From NCBI RefSeq assembly GCF_000151315.2, contig NW_011887306.1:697540-761539 (forward strand): 64,000 nucleotides of DNA, written 5' to 3'. The notes under the pieces were generated by a model. That model saw only the letters and a program-made list of their open reading frames with translations, had not been told where the DNA came from and ran no database searches. Below are positions 22,994 to 38,629 of this stretch, one piece after another (within the stretch, counting starts at the first letter, position 1; every line of letters starts with the position of its first letter). Position numbers and translations under genes: made by a program. The DNA is from Capsaspora owczarzaki ATCC 30864. Taxonomy: Eukaryota > Opisthokonta > Filasterea.

Positions 22994-25900
22994 ATGATTT
23001 CGCATTCTGGTGCCACAATACTGCTTGTGGTCGCTACCGCGTGGCTGGCTTTGATCCGGCCAGTCCTGGGCGCCCAACTGATTGCATGCAACATCAACAC
23101 CTGGGTTTCCATCGAATGCTCCTGCAACTCTGCCTCCAAAACCGTTGACTGCTCCAACAAGGCTGCGACACAAGTGCCAACTGGGATTCCGACGAATACG
23201 CAAGTCTTGTAAGGGCTTGCGTTTGGTTCGCCGCTCCGACCCCACTCCCTCCGCCTCTCTCTCACAGACAATGCATCTGGTATGACTACTAGAAAATTGT
23301 CCAACAACCTTCTGACCAGTATTCCGGCAGGATTCCTCGCTGGCTCTACCGCAATGACCATTGTGTACGAAGGGCTTGTTTGTATTTCGGCTATTTTGGC
23401 CTTTCGAAAAAACCAAACAAAACCAACGTTTGGTTTTTGCCTGCTGGTTGTTTTTACCGCGCGCTCACTTGCATGCTTTGGTTGGCTGCATGTGCATAAA
23501 TCATGTCTCTTCTGATAGTGATTTGAGCGACAACCCTACGCTGACAAGACTTGTAGCCACGCAGTTTTCCGGCATGCCCAGCTTGACCACTCTGTATGTT
23601 TTTGGTTTGTTTGTTTTTTGTTTTTTTGGTTGTTGATGTTGTTGGCTGTTGATCTTGTCAACAGTTTGGTGTCTCGCTCCTTTGCTCACCCGTACACCAC
23701 AGCAACCTGCAGAATACTTTCACCCCTGGCGTGACGACTGCGTGGCCGTCAAACTTGTTTAACGGCGTGCCCGTCACAACATTGTAAAAAAAAAAAAGAA
23801 CTGTCTGTGTGTTTCGACTTTGAAATTGTCGTCGTTGCCCACTCCATCGGCTTGGTACAGAACGATTTCCAACAATGGCTTTCAGATGCTACCTGACTGT
23901 TTGAACTCTCTGACCTCGGTCACGACGCTGTACGCGATTTATTGTCGCCGCTGTTGATTGTGGACTCTGCATTGGTTCTAACTTGTCCCTGCTCTCAACC
24001 ATAAACAGGAACATGGACTCTCTCTCCCTCCTGTCGATGATTCCGCCCGGTGCTATTCCTGCATTGCAGACTTTGAAAACTCTGTAGGGATGATCACATC
24101 TACCCTGAACGGCGTGATGACAACTCACTTTGTGCAATTCCAGGCGAATGAGATCGTCAGTGGTTACCTCCATTCCTGCGAGCTTTTTAAACAACATGCC
24201 AATGCTTACAACAGTGTAAGAGTTTTGATTGTACTTGTTTCCACTGCGGCGCAGGTACCTCACAGGTCTTTGTTCATTTGTTTTGTTTGGTTGGTTTGTT
24301 TTGTTTTGTTTTGTTTTGTTTGATCGTTTTTGGTATGCACAGGGACCTGAGCGGCAGTTCCCAGCTCACCCGCGTGATGCCTGGAGCCTTCTTCAACGTG
24401 CCCTCGCTTGCTGTTGTGTAAGGCATTGTTGAACTGAAAGCCGAAGCAACCACCCCCGATGCTGACTGACTATCTTTTTGATACTGCTCGCGGCGTAGGG
24501 ACTTGTCCAACACCAACTTGTCTACGATCTACAATTTGACATTCAACGGCGTGCCATCCCTTACCCAGCTGTAAGAGTCATAGCATTGTATGCTGCTAAA
24601 GTGCTTGGCCCGCGCCTCATCATCGCCGGCGTGCTTGTAGTGACTTGTCAGATTCCGGCATCACGAGTCTTGGATCCGATGCTTTTGCAGGTGCTGCCAA
24701 TCTGCAAACCCTGTAAGTCTTTCAAGCACTGCCTAGCTGAATCTATCAAAAGCTTGCTTACATTGTTGAGTCAAATAGTTTGCTGAAGAACAATCAGCTC
24801 AGTAATCTTCCAGCGGGAGTTTTTCGAATGCTGCCGAGCTTGACTACGCTGTAACATTTGGCGCTTGCGACGTTGATGGCTGAGTCGCTGCAGTCACTTG
24901 TCGCTCACATTGTCGCTCACATTGTCACTCTCGCAGGAATCTGGCGTACAATCAACTCACGACGTTTCCAACTGGCGCGTTTGATCCAATGGCCAACATC
25001 TTACCTCTCCTCTCCCTGTAAGCGATTCGCCGCTTTCTTGTTGATTTCTGGTCGCCAGGTTTGTTTCCAAAGACATGAACTCAACTTTTCTGCTGAACTT
25101 TAGGGATGTCTCATTCAACCAGATCACGGATTTGCCTCGCAACGACTTTGACCGCTTCACCAACTTGAACACGCTGTAACTTTGTGAACGAGAGCTCTTG
25201 CAGTTGAAAAGTCGTAGGCATTTGGTTTTCTCACATGTAAAGAACAATCTGAATCTGACAGTCTGCTGCAAAACAACCAGTTTACTACGATTGGGTATGG
25301 AACATTCGCTCGTCTCACTGCGCTGTCAACCTTGTAAGTGGTGCAAGATTCTCGGTTGTTGGTTGTGCTTGTGAAAAAAGTTTTTTCGTGTTCAAACGAG
25401 TGTTTTTGATGGTTTTTGGGGGAAAACAAAACAAACAACCGGTTAGCATGCTGGGATCGCCAGTTTTGCAGGTCACCCCACCTGGCCTCTTTCAGGGAAA
25501 GGCGCCATTCGGTAACAGTACCTTGATCCCGAACGCCTTTCCAGGCTCGTCTGGAGCACCTCTCAGTACCTTTGGCACCGCGACGCAGTTCACCCGTACG
25601 TGCGCACACAAATGGAATAAGCTTTGATGTTCCTGTCTGCTCATCTCGCTCGTGACAAATTTGAACAATGCCTCTCCGCGCCCCCTTCCCCTCAATTACA
25701 GCTTGCAGTCCCGGCTGTGCAACCTGTGCGTCTGCTTCCCTGTGTTGCTCGGAGTTTTGCGCGACCTGTGGGATTGTGGGCTCTACAACCGCTTGCACCA
25801 AGTGTTATGACGGATACGTCCTGAATCAAACCACTTGCTATGCGGGAGCATCGGTCGCGGCTGCTTCGGCAGCTTCTCGTAGCTCTGCGTCGGACGCATC

Positions 25901-28243
25901 ATCAATCTCGGCCATGATAACTTCGCTTGCTAGCAAGGCGTCTGCAGCATCTCTCGCAGCCCCGTCGTTGGCATCAGTGGCGTCGTCAGCTTCGGATGTC
26001 GCAGCCTCGTCCCTCGCGAACGTGGCGTCAATGACATCGTTGGCGAGCTTATCGGCTGCGTCGGCAGACCTTGCTGCATCCTTGGCCTCTGTTGCCTCTG
26101 CTTCGGCAGGCGCTGTAGCAGCTTCGAGGGCCTCTGCCGCATCTGCAGCTTCCATCGCGTCGTTGGCTTCTGATGCCACGATGGCATCTGAGGCAACAAT
26201 CGTGTCTGAAGCCACAATGGCCTCTGAAGCCACGATGGCCTATGATGCCACTAGGGCCTCGGACGCAACGATCGCGTCGGACGCAACAATGGCTTCAGCC
26301 TCGAAAGCCACCATGGCATCCTCCGCGTCGGAAGCCTATGAGCGATCTGCCTCCCTGGCTGCTACTGCAAATGCACAAAATGCGGGGACAACCGACTCCA
26401 TGGGTCTTGTCGTTGGTGCCGCTGTCGGTGGTGGTGTCGCGCTTGTGCTGCTTGCGATTTTGGCGCTGCTCCTCATCCGTCGCCGCCGTCGCAATCGTCA
26501 ACCGGGCCACGCTGCATCCCAGTCGAACGTATCCAAACAGCACCCCGATGGTTTGCCCTTGTATGAGCTTTCACGTGTGGCCGAAGAGGGCAATGCCCCT
26601 GCTTCCAAAGGCAAGATCATCCTGTACGACAACCCAACCGCAGGAGCGTCGGCCGAGGCGCACTACACGAGCCTTGACCAACCCACCAGCAACAACAGCT
26701 TGCTGTTTGCTGCTTCCTACGATAATCCCAAGTCGGCCAACTCGACTGCCTCAAGCAACGCTGCAGATTCGTCGCACTACACCGATCTTGATCAAGCCAA
26801 TGGAAATGGAAACTTGCTCTCCGCGGTCTCGTACGACAATCCCAGGTCGAGCTTCACCAAGAAGAGCTCCGACGAAGGCGCTCCCACGATGCATGCGAGC
26901 GATGCGGTGTCAAAGATTGATGGCCTTCCCAGCTCGCCAGCTCCCGTGGTACAGCTGGGTATTTACGACAACAGCAACAGTCTGCCCAGCGAGACAAATC
27001 GACCAGCAACCGCACCGTCCACGGAAGAAGTCGTGCTGCTCTCAACACCTAAGGTTGCGGAACAGCTTGAAACTCGCGTCTACGACAATCCAAACGGAGC
27101 GGTGGCTCATCAGTTGCGTGCCGGAGTGCTGCTTGGGAGTGTTCTCGGTTCGGGCGAGTTTGGCGTTGTGATGCGCGGCCTCCTCGACGCGACATTGGTC
27201 CCTACCGATGCCATGTACTTGATTCGGGACAGCTCCAAGCCTCAGCTCGAAGTGGCCATCAAGCTTCTCAAAGAGGACGCGTCCGAACAAGCGCGGAACG
27301 ATTTTATCGAAGAGTCCAAGGTGATTGTGCAATTCCGAAGTTCGTTCATTGTGCGAGCAATTGCCGCTCTGCTAGACACGACTCCCTTCATGTGCATTTT
27401 GGAGCGCGTGCCGTACGGCGATTTGCGTGATGTGCTCGTCAAATCGGAAGCAGCCAGGTTTCAGTGGACTGCTGGCGAATTCGCCCACGCGCTCGCTCAA
27501 GTTGCGTCCGGTCTGAATTACTTGGAGTCGGTGCGGTTTGTTCATCGCGATATTGCTGCGCGAAACTGTCTCGTTGGAGCGTCCCTGTCGGTCAAGATTG
27601 CCGATTTTGGGCTGTCGCGCTCGTTGGAAGCCGATCAAAACTACTATCACATGGAGAGCCGCGGACGCCTCCCAGCCAAGGCAAGCGTTGCGAGTGGGAG
27701 GGAGGAAGAGGGGGGCGCTTTGAAGGGTTGTGGTTGAAGTGATTGGATTGGGACATCGAGGTGGTGGCACTCACGGTCGTGTGAATTCTGATGTCAACAA
27801 CCGTTCAGTGGATGGCTCCAGAATGTCTCGCGTACCGCAAGTTTACTCACCAAAGCGACATTTGGGCGTTTGCTGTGCTGGCTTGTAAGCCTCAGTGGTG
27901 TACATGTTTGGTGTCTCGTGTCCTCTGGCTCACCTTTTCTTTTTGTTTTTGTTTTTTTTTTGTTTTTTGTTGTTGTTTTTTTTTTTTGCCGCGGTTTGTA
28001 GGGGAGGTGTACTCGTACGGTGCGAGCCCGTACGGATCCATTCAAGGCCGTGATGTTCTCGCATACATCGAGACTGGCCGACGTCTCGAGTGCCCGGCGG
28101 CATGCTCAGAGGCAGCATACCGCCAGCTGTTGCAGTGCTGGGCTCTCAACCCGTCGGAGCGTCCAACCAGCAGCGATTTGCGCGACCATTTTACAGGCGC
28201 AGCGGTTGGGACCTTCCGCGACATTGGAGCTCTGTTAAAGTGA
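22994..28243 (+). CDS. LRR receptor tyrosine kinase
   Basis: Eighteen exons give 1206 residues: 22994-23208, 23293-23364, 23519-23593, 23703-23783, 23861-23929, 24009-24083, 24144-24215, 24343-24417, 24499-24570, 24641-24712, 24779-24850, 24937-25017, 25104-25175, 25262-25333, 25447-25595, 25702-27680, 27809-27884, 28002-28243. A signal peptide (1-33) and a Cys-rich LRR cap are followed by 13 exons that each encode one LRR of 23-27 residues, all with phase-2 borders. Next are a Cys-rich module (about 442-490), a long Ala/Ser stalk (about 491-670), a membrane helix (about 676-700) and a juxtamembrane region with repeated YDNP and HYTxLDQ sites. The kinase domain (about 915-1200) has GSGEFG, VAIK, HRDIAARN, DFG, paired activation-loop tyrosines (NYYHM) and LPAKWMAPE. 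Intron 16 starts GC (AAG/GCAAGC). The kinase should be active; ligand unknown. Confidence 0.95.
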
Positions 28244-30747: not shown

Positions 30748-30769
30748 CGAAAAGCAAAAGAAAAAACGT

Positions 30770-30839
30770 GCGAACGCCGAGAATCGGACTCGGGTCAAGT
30801 CGTTGGCAACGACCTATTCTGCCACTGAACCACGTTCGC
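30770..30839 (-). tRNA. tRNA-Gly (GCC), copy A
   Basis: The 70-nt sequence folds as a cloverleaf: acceptor GCGAACG/CGTTCGC, D-stem GTTC/GAAT with loop AGTGGCA, anticodon stem GGTCG/CGACT around loop TTGCCAA (anticodon GCC), variable loop TGAC, and T-stem CCGAG/CTCGG around TCCGATT. The 3' side runs into T-rich sequence suited to Pol III termination. T-loop position 55 is C rather than the near-universal T. No intron. Identical to copy B, 241 bp away and facing the other direction. Confidence 0.93.
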
Positions 30840-31080: not shown

Positions 31081-31150
31081 GCGAACGTGGTTCAGTGGCA
31101 GAATAGGTCGTTGCCAACGACTTGACCCGAGTCCGATTCTCGGCGTTCGC
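31081..31150 (+). tRNA. tRNA-Gly (GCC), copy B
   Basis: Identical over all 70 nt to copy A and in head-to-head orientation with it. About 30 bp of 5' flank is also related between the copies (TTGCCC-GCAG, then CAAGAAAT just before the gene). A T9 run begins four bases after the acceptor stem, a good Pol III terminator. It shares the unusual C at T-loop position 55. Confidence 0.93.
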
Positions 31151-31594
31151 ACGTTTTTTTTTTGGCTTTTTTTACTGCTTTTTTTTTTTTTTTCTTTTGA
31201 CTTGTTTTTTGCTCCTGGCCCAAGGCTTCGCATGGTTCAATGCCTCCAGGTTTCTCATCATATCCATTCATTCGACAAGATATAATCATGCTGTACAAGA
31301 GCAAACGATCGGTGCAAACTACAGTGCAACTTTTTCACAAGTTTTCGACAAGAATCAAACCCCTGACTTTGTACAGCTCCAGCATCTCTTGGAGACCTGA
31401 TACACCGACTTTACCGTGCGGGAAGTATTGGCAATATTGTTTACATTGTTGTTCGAGCGTGCCATCGGTTGTAGGGAGCTTTTTTATGTACCTTGCATGC
31501 ACACCAAAATATCATGGTTTTGTTGGAGCTCGCTGTGCATGTATACATGCATAGTGCACTCTTTCCCGCTGATACTCGAGGATGTTGTACTCTG

Positions 31595-34499: not shown

Positions 34500-37400
34500 A
34501 TGACACACCTCCACCCTGCTATATGGCTTTGCCTGTGCTTGCCACTACTGGCGGCGCTCGTCCCGAACGCTGCCCAAGCCCAACTCATCTCGCAGAGTGC
34601 AGTCACCAATTGCGACGTCTCTGCGACAGCAAATTCCACCACGCTGAGCTGCAATAAGAAAATAGTGGTCGCCATAACAATGGCTGCAGCTCAAGATGCC
34701 ATTACCAGCGTGGATGCAATCTCAAGCGTCGTTGCTGGCGACGGGACCATTTTGAAAGTTACGCCAATCAGAGTGGTCGTTTCCAAGTCCGAGACACTCA
34801 TCATGCATCCTGTGCGCTATCTGCAATCCGTCAACAACAAGCCTACTGAATCCATCTTTCTGAAATCCAATGTGCTTGGCGTCTACGACTCTTGCAAAGC
34901 GGAAGAGGGAAACACTGATTCTACGTGCGGTGTTTACATGGATGCAAACTCAAAGCCCATTCGAGACAGCCAGGTAAGCTTGCACAGCCAACGCATGCCT
35001 GCTGAGCAAATGTGCCGCAAAGCGCTTCCTTACCACCACACCTGCACAACAGGGCTTTTGTTGCACTTGCTCCTTCAATGAAGTCGTTGGAATCGACTCG
35101 CCGTATTCTCGAGGGTCGACGTCATGCACACTCTTCTCGAGCTCATCACAGTCGGCGCATTGCATGCGGTTTGATCAGCTGTGGTACAATGTCGTGGCGC
35201 TGGATCCGCCTCAGATGGCTGTCAAGTTTACGTTTACGATCTTTACTGGCTCGGAAAACAAGACAATCACCGTTTCGCCAAGTCAGCGAACGGCCAAGAA
35301 CAGCGATGGCTCTGTAATTGTTCGTCTGATTGGGAGCTTTCAGTCATTCGTGGCGGACTACGACCTGACGACAAACTACCTGCTGATTCCGCAGCCGGCA
35401 ACGAGTCCAACGAGCCCACAGGTGGCGTTGGGCCGATCGGATTGGATGCTCGTGCCAAAGTCAACCGTGGATCTGACCGGAGCCACCTGCGACAAGATTG
35501 GCGTGGGCTTTACTCCCTTCCGCTATCAAGAGGGCCAGTGCACGCGTCCTTCGGGCTCCTGTTTGAACAACCAGCCGAAAGACTTTTGGACGGCAGACAC
35601 GACGTTACGTCGGCAAGGAAAGATGGTCAACTACTTTCTCGAGCGGTATGGCGACATTCTTGGGCTGTACGCAGGCGCCTCAGACATTGTTTCGATGTCG
35701 CCGGGGCAGCAGTATGTCCTAGCCACTCGACCAAGAGACCCGGCGTCCATCCTGTTCACGATGGAAATTGCAGCCGACTCGCTTACATTCTACAACAACC
35801 TGGGTCAAGCGAGCATCAAAGTCTTCTCTGTCACTGATTTTGAATCGCTCAGTCAGAGGGGAACCCTGCGAGTCCTTGTGGCCAGTGAGACGCCTCTTGA
35901 AGCGCTGTACGCGGTTCGGGTCGTTGACTGCGTGCCCGCCATCTTCCCGATCGCAGAGCAATCTCAGTCAATTGGCTCATACCAAGCAAAGTGGTACACT
36001 TTTACACTCCAGACAATGACACCAATTGGCGGCAATACCAACTGCACCATCTTGCTGGTCAATTCCAACAGCGACCAGCTGGACAAAAAGTTTGTGTCCT
36101 TCCGCACCAACAGCACCACCATCTACAAGGGAAACCAAGGCGGCAGCGAGCCTGGGGATGATGATGACCGCGGCAACGATCCAAGCTCTGGCCTTAGTTT
36201 GAACTTTTTGGGCGACGCCGCAAAATGGCTCGCGGATGCGATCGCCAGTGGGTACGGCGTGGTCTTGATCATGGGATTGAGTGCGATTGTCTTGGCCATC
36301 CTGAGAGGATGCGCTCGGTGCTGCTGCAAGCTTGGCGTCAGCGAAAAGCACAAAGACCGCTCTGCCTGCGTCAACTTTTTCCACGATCTCTTGCAAATAT
36401 GCCTGCTACCAATCTACCTCATCAAGTACATTATTGACATTTTCCGCAAGCCCCCGCCGCCCGATCAGGATGACATGAACACAAGACGCTTTGACGAACG
36501 TTCGGCACCACGGGCAAGCTTTGATGAAGAAGGTCGCTGGTCGCAGCGGTTGTCGACGAGTCCTCAAGACTCCCCGAGCTCGCACAGCACTACCGGCCTG
36601 ATGGGGCCTTCCCGCGGTCCCATGACGGAGAGTGCATCTCGACGCCGCCTTCAGTTTGATTCTGCCCGCAACTCGGATGCCTCAGCCACCTCATCGACTT
36701 CGCGTTCTGCAATGATTGGTCACACGGTCTTGGCGACATCGCGGAAAGTAGGCCGCACTTTGTGGAATGCCGTCAGAGCCGGCAGTTCGATGCTGCGAGC
36801 GCGACTCGCGCGAGATGCTGCAGTTGGCTCTGAGGCATCCCAGGCGCCTACATGGACTGAGATGGAGCAAACACGACGCGCGCCCCTGGAGCCCACAGGA
36901 GCGTCTGACGTCAGTAGACCGCGACAGACCATGCCCGAGCATGCCACTGCAAATCAGAATCGAGCGGTCAGTAGCCATCGGCCGCGCACCACGCTGTCGC
37001 GCGCTGAACTGCAAATACTCGCTCGTTCGAATCGGCCAGTGTACTTTAACTTTAGACGGGTGCGTCTTCAAGAGATTGGCAGTCAGATTTTTGTAAGGCT
37101 TGCTAGGATGGAAGGGTGGTGACGGTGACCAAGATGGTCTGTGAGGAGAGTGATTGATGAAGATGCGCTCAACTGTCCGTTTGCACAACAGAACCCAGGT
37201 CCCCAGTTCAGCGTCCTAGGTCGCATGAGCGTGCTGACTTACCCTGATAGTCCTGACGAGTACATTTTCCATTTAGACTCGCACACGTTCCAGGTAGGCG
37301 GGAAATAGCATTGACAAAATTCAGCGTACTTGGCCTCGAGCTTAAGGTTGCTGGATGTACTTGTGCGCATGTAGACCATGGCGTGCAACGAGCAACAACA

Positions 37401-37536
37401 GATGGAGGAACTGCATCCGGCCCGCCGCCTTGACGAAGCGTTCTTCACTCAAGGCCTCACCCTACAGCAAGCCGAACGGCTGTTATCAACGCATCCTCAA
37501 TTCCCGTGCATTAATCCTCCAGGGGATTCCGAGTAG
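34500..37536 (+). CDS. HAP2: HAP2/GCS1 gamete fusogen
   Basis: Four exons, 34500-34973, 35053-37059, 37192-37293 and 37375-37536, all phase 0; 914 residues. HAP2 is a class II fusion protein that merges gamete membranes after adhesion. A signal peptide (about 1-28, ending AAQAQ) is followed by the ectodomain: LSCNKKIVVAITM, the GFCCTCSF cysteine cluster, AHCMRFDQLWYNVV, and the diagnostic HAP2-GCS1 block near 303-330 (TCDKIGVGF, FRYQEGQC, GSCLNNQPKDFW). Several N-glycosylation sequons are present. One membrane helix lies near 557-577 and is followed directly by cysteines (GCARCCCK), as is common in HAP2. The cytoplasmic tail is about 330 residues, Ser/Arg-rich; the last two exons are inferred from good splice sites and matching phase. 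An AATAAA lies at 37603. PNO1 converges 180 bp away. Confidence 0.94.

Positions 37537-38569: not shown

Positions 38570-38629
<60 letters not shown>

Follow-up and report, generated by a model that had tools for sequence, protein, structure and literature searches.

A full-length HAP2 gene, likely encoding a class II fusogen, and a second, divergent HAP2 gene in Capsaspora owczarzaki

A gene on contig C15 of Capsaspora owczarzaki ATCC 30864 encodes a full-length HAP2. Judged from its sequence and predicted structure, this protein is likely a class II fusogen that joins two cells at their plasma membranes during a sexual cycle, a reading to which we assign a probability of about three in four. 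The gene occupies positions 34500-37536, plus strand, of a 64,000-nucleotide stretch (C15:697540-761539, hereafter the window) of an assembly of 27.46 Mb and 29 contigs. HAP2 is the gamete-fusing protein of many eukaryotes. Capsaspora, an amoeba that is unicellular and closely related to animals, serves as a model for how animals arose, and is not known to have an observed sexual cycle. An intact HAP2, a second, divergent HAP2 and relatives of meiosis genes in the same genome together make a sexual or cell-fusing stage likely.

Assignment of the window gene to the HAP2 family is supported by profile search, by solved homologues and by predicted fold. An earlier note, written from the letters of this DNA, had named HAP2 here and suggested a search with the Pfam profile PF10699 and a structure prediction; both came out in favour of the family. 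PF10699 matches the protein with 343.9 bits (E = 2e-102), far over its curated cut-off of 27.4 bits, between residues 49-586 and profile positions 2-505 of 515. The cysteine signatures noted earlier are both present: the HAP2-GCS1 block TCDKIGVGF...GSCLNNQPKDFW (the diagnostic CDKIGVGF...GSCLNNQ, residues 304-332, 35488-35574, plus strand) and the GFCCTC cluster (residues 159-164, 35053-35070, plus strand), whose C161, C162 and C164 are invariant in eight of eight aligned HAP2s. Thirteen cysteines, E117 and R178 are invariant across all eight rows; P0006, a near-copy of P0004, was excluded from alignments and trees. Conserved cysteines and a Glu-Arg pair at the tip of domain II are described as marks of HAP2 (PMC6089408); we equate the cysteines, E117 and R178 with these residues by position in the block and not by the published figure, and the pairing is putative. 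Solved HAP2 homologues also match the window protein in sequence comparison. The predicted structure has a three-domain class II fold, with pLDDT (predicted local distance difference test) of at least 60 in 38 of 48 ten-residue blocks between residues 31 and 510, and a fold search matched it to HAP2 structures and to the worm fusogen EFF-1. Our protein searches scored the best 7995, 7997 and 7996 candidates, a depth at which many HAP2s were not reached; viral contigs gave 26 pattern matches with no relative among them.

The frame runs from an ATG at 34500 to a stop codon at 37534-37536, exactly the limits given in the earlier note, and joins to 2778 bases and 925 residues with a single, terminal stop. 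Exon 1 (34500-34973, residues 1-158) carries a signal-like hydrophobic segment (residues 3-26 by hydropathy) and the first part of the ectodomain, its frame giving a partial PF10699 match of 4.5e-11. Exon 2 (35053-37092, residues 159-838; 2.5e-84 on its frame) carries the remaining ectodomain, the membrane helix, a second hydrophobic segment and most of the tail, and is followed by exon 3 (37192-37293, residues 839-872) and exon 4 with the stop codon (37375-37536, residues 873-925), all on the plus strand. The three introns, of 79, 99 and 81 bases, all run GT...AG and are all phase 0 by exon lengths. Intron 1 (34974-35052, GTAAGC...CAACAG) is predicted only and falls in the ectodomain between residues 158 and 159; introns 2 (37093-37191) and 3 (37294-37374) fall in the tail. 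Retention of either tail intron would bring a stop into the frame, and retention of intron 1 would shift it. The claim of an intact copy thus holds, with an open frame and consensus splice sites. The earlier description of a long tail of some 330 residues with three introns needs amending: about 345 residues follow the membrane helix, and two of the three introns lie among them. GC content is 0.62 at third codon positions against 0.54 and 0.49.

The only public record found for this gene is the truncated CAOG_08340 (P0012), whose 446 residues are identical, every letter, to residues 480-925. Introns 2 and 3 therefore agree with an outside record, and intron 1 is without such support. CAOG_08340 starts at an internal methionine on an 8157-base contig, which we infer ended inside the HAP2 gene; an N-terminal half recorded separately could be concealed by the length rule of our protein search. 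Short, named hypothetical and lacking any precomputed Pfam domain, CAOG_08340 makes the gene easy to overlook.

How might the protein sit in the membrane? A membrane helix is predicted at about residues 556-579 (36244-36315, plus strand; hydropathy up to 2.37), within a helix spanning residues 544-584 of the structure model. From it continues a cysteine-rich stretch, CARCCC, the juxtamembrane segment that had been noted earlier. The earlier count of one membrane helix is right about this helix and unsettled as a count, since a second hydrophobic segment comes after it (residues 597-622, 36367-36444, plus strand; hydropathy up to 1.91; helix 594-622 in the model), possibly re-entrant or membrane-lying. 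P0003 has a counterpart of this segment; P0002, P0004, P0005, P0008 and P0009 have none. A basic stretch precedes the segment, and in P0003 another follows it too. With this arrangement, a tail that stays cytosolic, its helix lying along the membrane or re-entering it, seems more likely than a second membrane crossing.

The end of the protein forms a conserved region of about 108 residues (818-925; 37030-37533, plus strand) across introns 2 and 3, preceded by a long linker in which Ser, Arg and Thr abound. It is common to three of the eight other HAP2s returned by our search (P0002-P0009), namely P0002, P0003 and the coral protein P0007. The likeness was first spotted by eye and then tested with leave-one-out profiles; an automatic five-row whole-protein alignment misaligned the coral end, and the ends were excised by hand. 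A profile built from P0002, P0003 and P0007 scored 43.0 bits on the last 300 residues of the window protein, where the best of 5000 shuffles reached 7.2. The corresponding scores (best shuffle in brackets) were 19.2 bits (5.7) for P0002, 41.2 (8.3) for P0003 and 31.9 (10.3) for P0007. The profile found no match in P0005, P0008, P0009, P0010 or the modelled second HAP2, and matches below 1 bit in P0004, P0006 and P0011. Pfam returned no match for the Capsaspora row, and a search of the profile against solved structures returned none below E 0.2. A weak AMPK1_CBM match (0.018) in one of the four tail rows was taken as chance. Folded alone, the region reached a mean pLDDT of 41.7 (residues 801-910 of the full model reach about 50-69); given this low confidence, no fold is claimed and no fold search was made with it. 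P0003 groups with coral P0007 in the tree (support 100/99), so the age of the region rests mainly on the coral-type group and Capsaspora. HAP2 tails are described as widely differing in size, with a role still under scrutiny (review PMC8777248). The shared region bears on this question and suggests that some HAP2 tails contain an old functional domain, not filler.

A second, divergent HAP2 gene, CAOG_05453, lies on the minus strand of contig C9 at about 205.9-209.8 kb (205900-209813) and is the only other HAP2 locus in the genome among the best candidates scored. The protein was modelled at 1091 residues, or 1130 with one extra splice, whose end agrees with P0011. PF10699 matches it over the curated cut-off (262.6 bits, E = 8.4e-78, residues 39-849), and its UniRef name already tags it as generative-cell-specific. 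P0010 ("variant 4", Capsaspora owczarzaki ATCC 30864) is 100% identical over 97% of the query, following the model as far as residue 1057 and reading into an intron beyond it. P0011 (CAOG_05453) is 80% identical over 88%, because stretches are skipped in this isoform, the one carrying the diagnostic HAP2 block among them. Proteins named for this strain, P0010 and CAOG_08340, thus match both HAP2 genes at 100% over the covered part, and the earlier guess of a unicellular relative of animals was correct. Against the 8-row canonical profile the second protein aligned only over residues 500-702 (57.9 bits). Placed in the canonical alignment, it has Cys at 5 of the 13 invariant cysteine positions and keeps 18 of 40 invariant columns, in an alignment whose N-terminal half looks unreliable. 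Its tyrosine-rich cytoplasmic tail holds YMDVG, YANVD and YADVG, and the gene adjoins a KN-type homeodomain gene and a kinase gene (PF07714, a family covering tyrosine and serine/threonine kinases). We tentatively raise a two-fusogen mating system, a possibility we hold at well under even odds. In it the canonical HAP2, its intracellular end domain kept since before animals, would dock on a conserved cytoplasmic partner, and the YMDVG/YANVD/YADVG tail of CAOG_05453 would couple gamete contact to tyrosine-kinase signalling.

Does the genome retain relatives of meiosis genes? Searches covered the DMC1, MND1, HOP2, SPO11 and HOP1/HORMAD families, on incomplete gene models, and all five gave family matches. 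The joined pieces of DMC1 score 459.3 over a curated cut-off of 447.7, distinct from RAD51 in the same genome (587.3 over 478.05); MND1 and HOP2 exceed their cut-offs on single exons. There are two TP6A_N (Spo11/Topo VI A family) genes, on C4 near 826200 and C9 near 886000. When its pieces are joined, the C9 gene has its best match in Topo VI A (4.6e-17) and also matches SPO11 (8urq) at 1.5e-8; the C4 gene, likewise joined, matches Topo VI A only. A HORMA gene on C5 matches, in joined pieces, HORMA domain-containing protein 1 (8j69; 1.9e-13), and a second HORMA-domain gene lies on C1. Meiosis genes may persist for other uses, so these relatives support sex and do not demonstrate it; they strengthen the inference from HAP2 that Capsaspora likely has a sexual cycle. 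The HOP2 (TBPIP) locus occurs twice on C10, near 1131600 and 703400, in opposite orientation and 97-99% identical over about 1.5 kb, either because it was recently duplicated in inverted orientation or through an effect of the assembly.

By homology, the signal peptide would send the HAP2 ectodomain to the cell surface, the domain II tip loops would insert into the partner membrane, and three copies would zip together, fold back and draw the two membranes into one. On the cytosolic side, the Cys-rich stretch, the second hydrophobic segment and the conserved end may anchor or gate the fusogen via an intracellular partner; in other HAP2s the tail is described as affecting localization or function (PMC8777248). 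The divergent copy may serve this fusion step too, much as HgrB works alongside HgrA in Dictyostelium.

Several observations weigh against a sexual fusogen as we describe it. Confidence in the structure model is modest (mean pLDDT 58.2, predicted template modelling score 0.42), and the training set of AlphaFold included solved HAP2s. With a second alignment method, R178 is no longer listed as invariant. Given the second hydrophobic segment, the tail may take more than one topology, and a single-pass type I reading is tentative. Trees of eight and of nine HAP2 rows give the window gene no supported position, so we make no claim on its descent among HAP2s. Both TP6A_N genes give better matches to Topo VI A than to SPO11, and of 14 control genomes, 4, every one archaeal, have matches to this family too. 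The karyogamy family PF04163 found no match in the genome, in a search run without a positive control.

Could the protein be an active fusogen that fuses cells or remodels membranes outside sex, for instance during aggregation, without meiosis? Capsaspora has an aggregative stage, and EFF-1, a worm fusogen acting in somatic fusion, is among the structural matches of the model. Retention of relatives of DMC1, MND1, HOP2, SPO11 and HORMAD1 speaks against this, and HAP2s of tested role are described as working in gametes (PMC2766252, PMC4910948); we regard the explanation as unlikely. An intact-looking but unused relic, in a lineage turned asexual, is still harder to credit. The truncation of the one public model found, which is no direct support for a relic, is countered by a frame open over 2778 bases, by consensus splice sites, by the third-position GC and by the invariant residues kept. 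A foreign HAP2 brought into the contig by contamination or chimeric assembly might be suspected from the separate 8157-base contig that carries the gene's end in another record of the strain. That record is named for the same strain, however, and the window lies within a 930,114-base contig where the neighbours are eukaryote-type SART-1, PNO1 and adaptin; we have set this source aside as highly improbable. The preferred reading remains a HAP2 acting in sexual cell fusion.

Elsewhere in the window, a kinase frame (PF07714, 7.4e-41; 25665-27737, plus strand), preceded by a TMEM154 match below threshold, is perhaps a receptor kinase. Two tRNA-Gly (gcc) genes, at 30768-30839 on the minus and 31081-31152 on the plus strand, lie in opposite orientation with about 240 bases between them. 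Some 1 kb downstream from the HAP2 gene lies a simple (CA)n repeat (about 38572-38627). For Capsaspora, an assembly at chromosome scale (n = 16) has been described (PMC10232365).

We found no report on a Capsaspora HAP2 in the titles and abstract beginnings of the papers listed from the open full-text literature, a coverage outside which lie most subscription journals and supplements, where a mention is possible; neither CAOG number (CAOG_08340, CAOG_05453) gave a full-text match. The window gene itself is a member of a known family, and the newer parts of the finding are the common tail region and the two-gene arrangement. A complete HAP2, a second HAP2 and meiosis-gene relatives offer direct handles for seeking sex in Capsaspora.

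Like the HAP2/GCS1 proteins of Chlamydomonas, Arabidopsis and Trypanosoma cruzi (5mf1, 5ow3, 5ow4), the window protein has a signal-like segment, a predicted class II ectodomain and a membrane helix followed by a basic stretch rich in Cys, and within the eight aligned HAP2s it shares the invariant cysteines. Set against those three, whose tails lay outside the comparison, it has a second hydrophobic segment and an end region after a long Ser/Arg/Thr linker. With an animal HAP2, the hapless 2-like protein of the coral Dendronephthya gigantea (P0007), it has the C-terminal tail region in common and is 30% identical across half the query; unlike it, the coral model has a weak hydrophobic segment (1.71) at the expected membrane helix, perhaps a gene-model fault. 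In Dictyostelium, too, there are two HAP2 genes per genome, one canonical (HgrA) and one divergent (HgrB). Type I cells with either gene removed are described as losing sexual fusion, while removal in a type III congenic strain did not abolish mating, and HgrB is described as resembling HAP2 in the motif region only (PMC4910948). The second Capsaspora HAP2 likewise aligns to the 8-row profile over residues 500-702 only, whereas PF10699 covers its residues 39-849. Judged by the published description of HgrB, the Capsaspora pair, whether orthologous or separately duplicated, resembles HgrA and HgrB in architecture.
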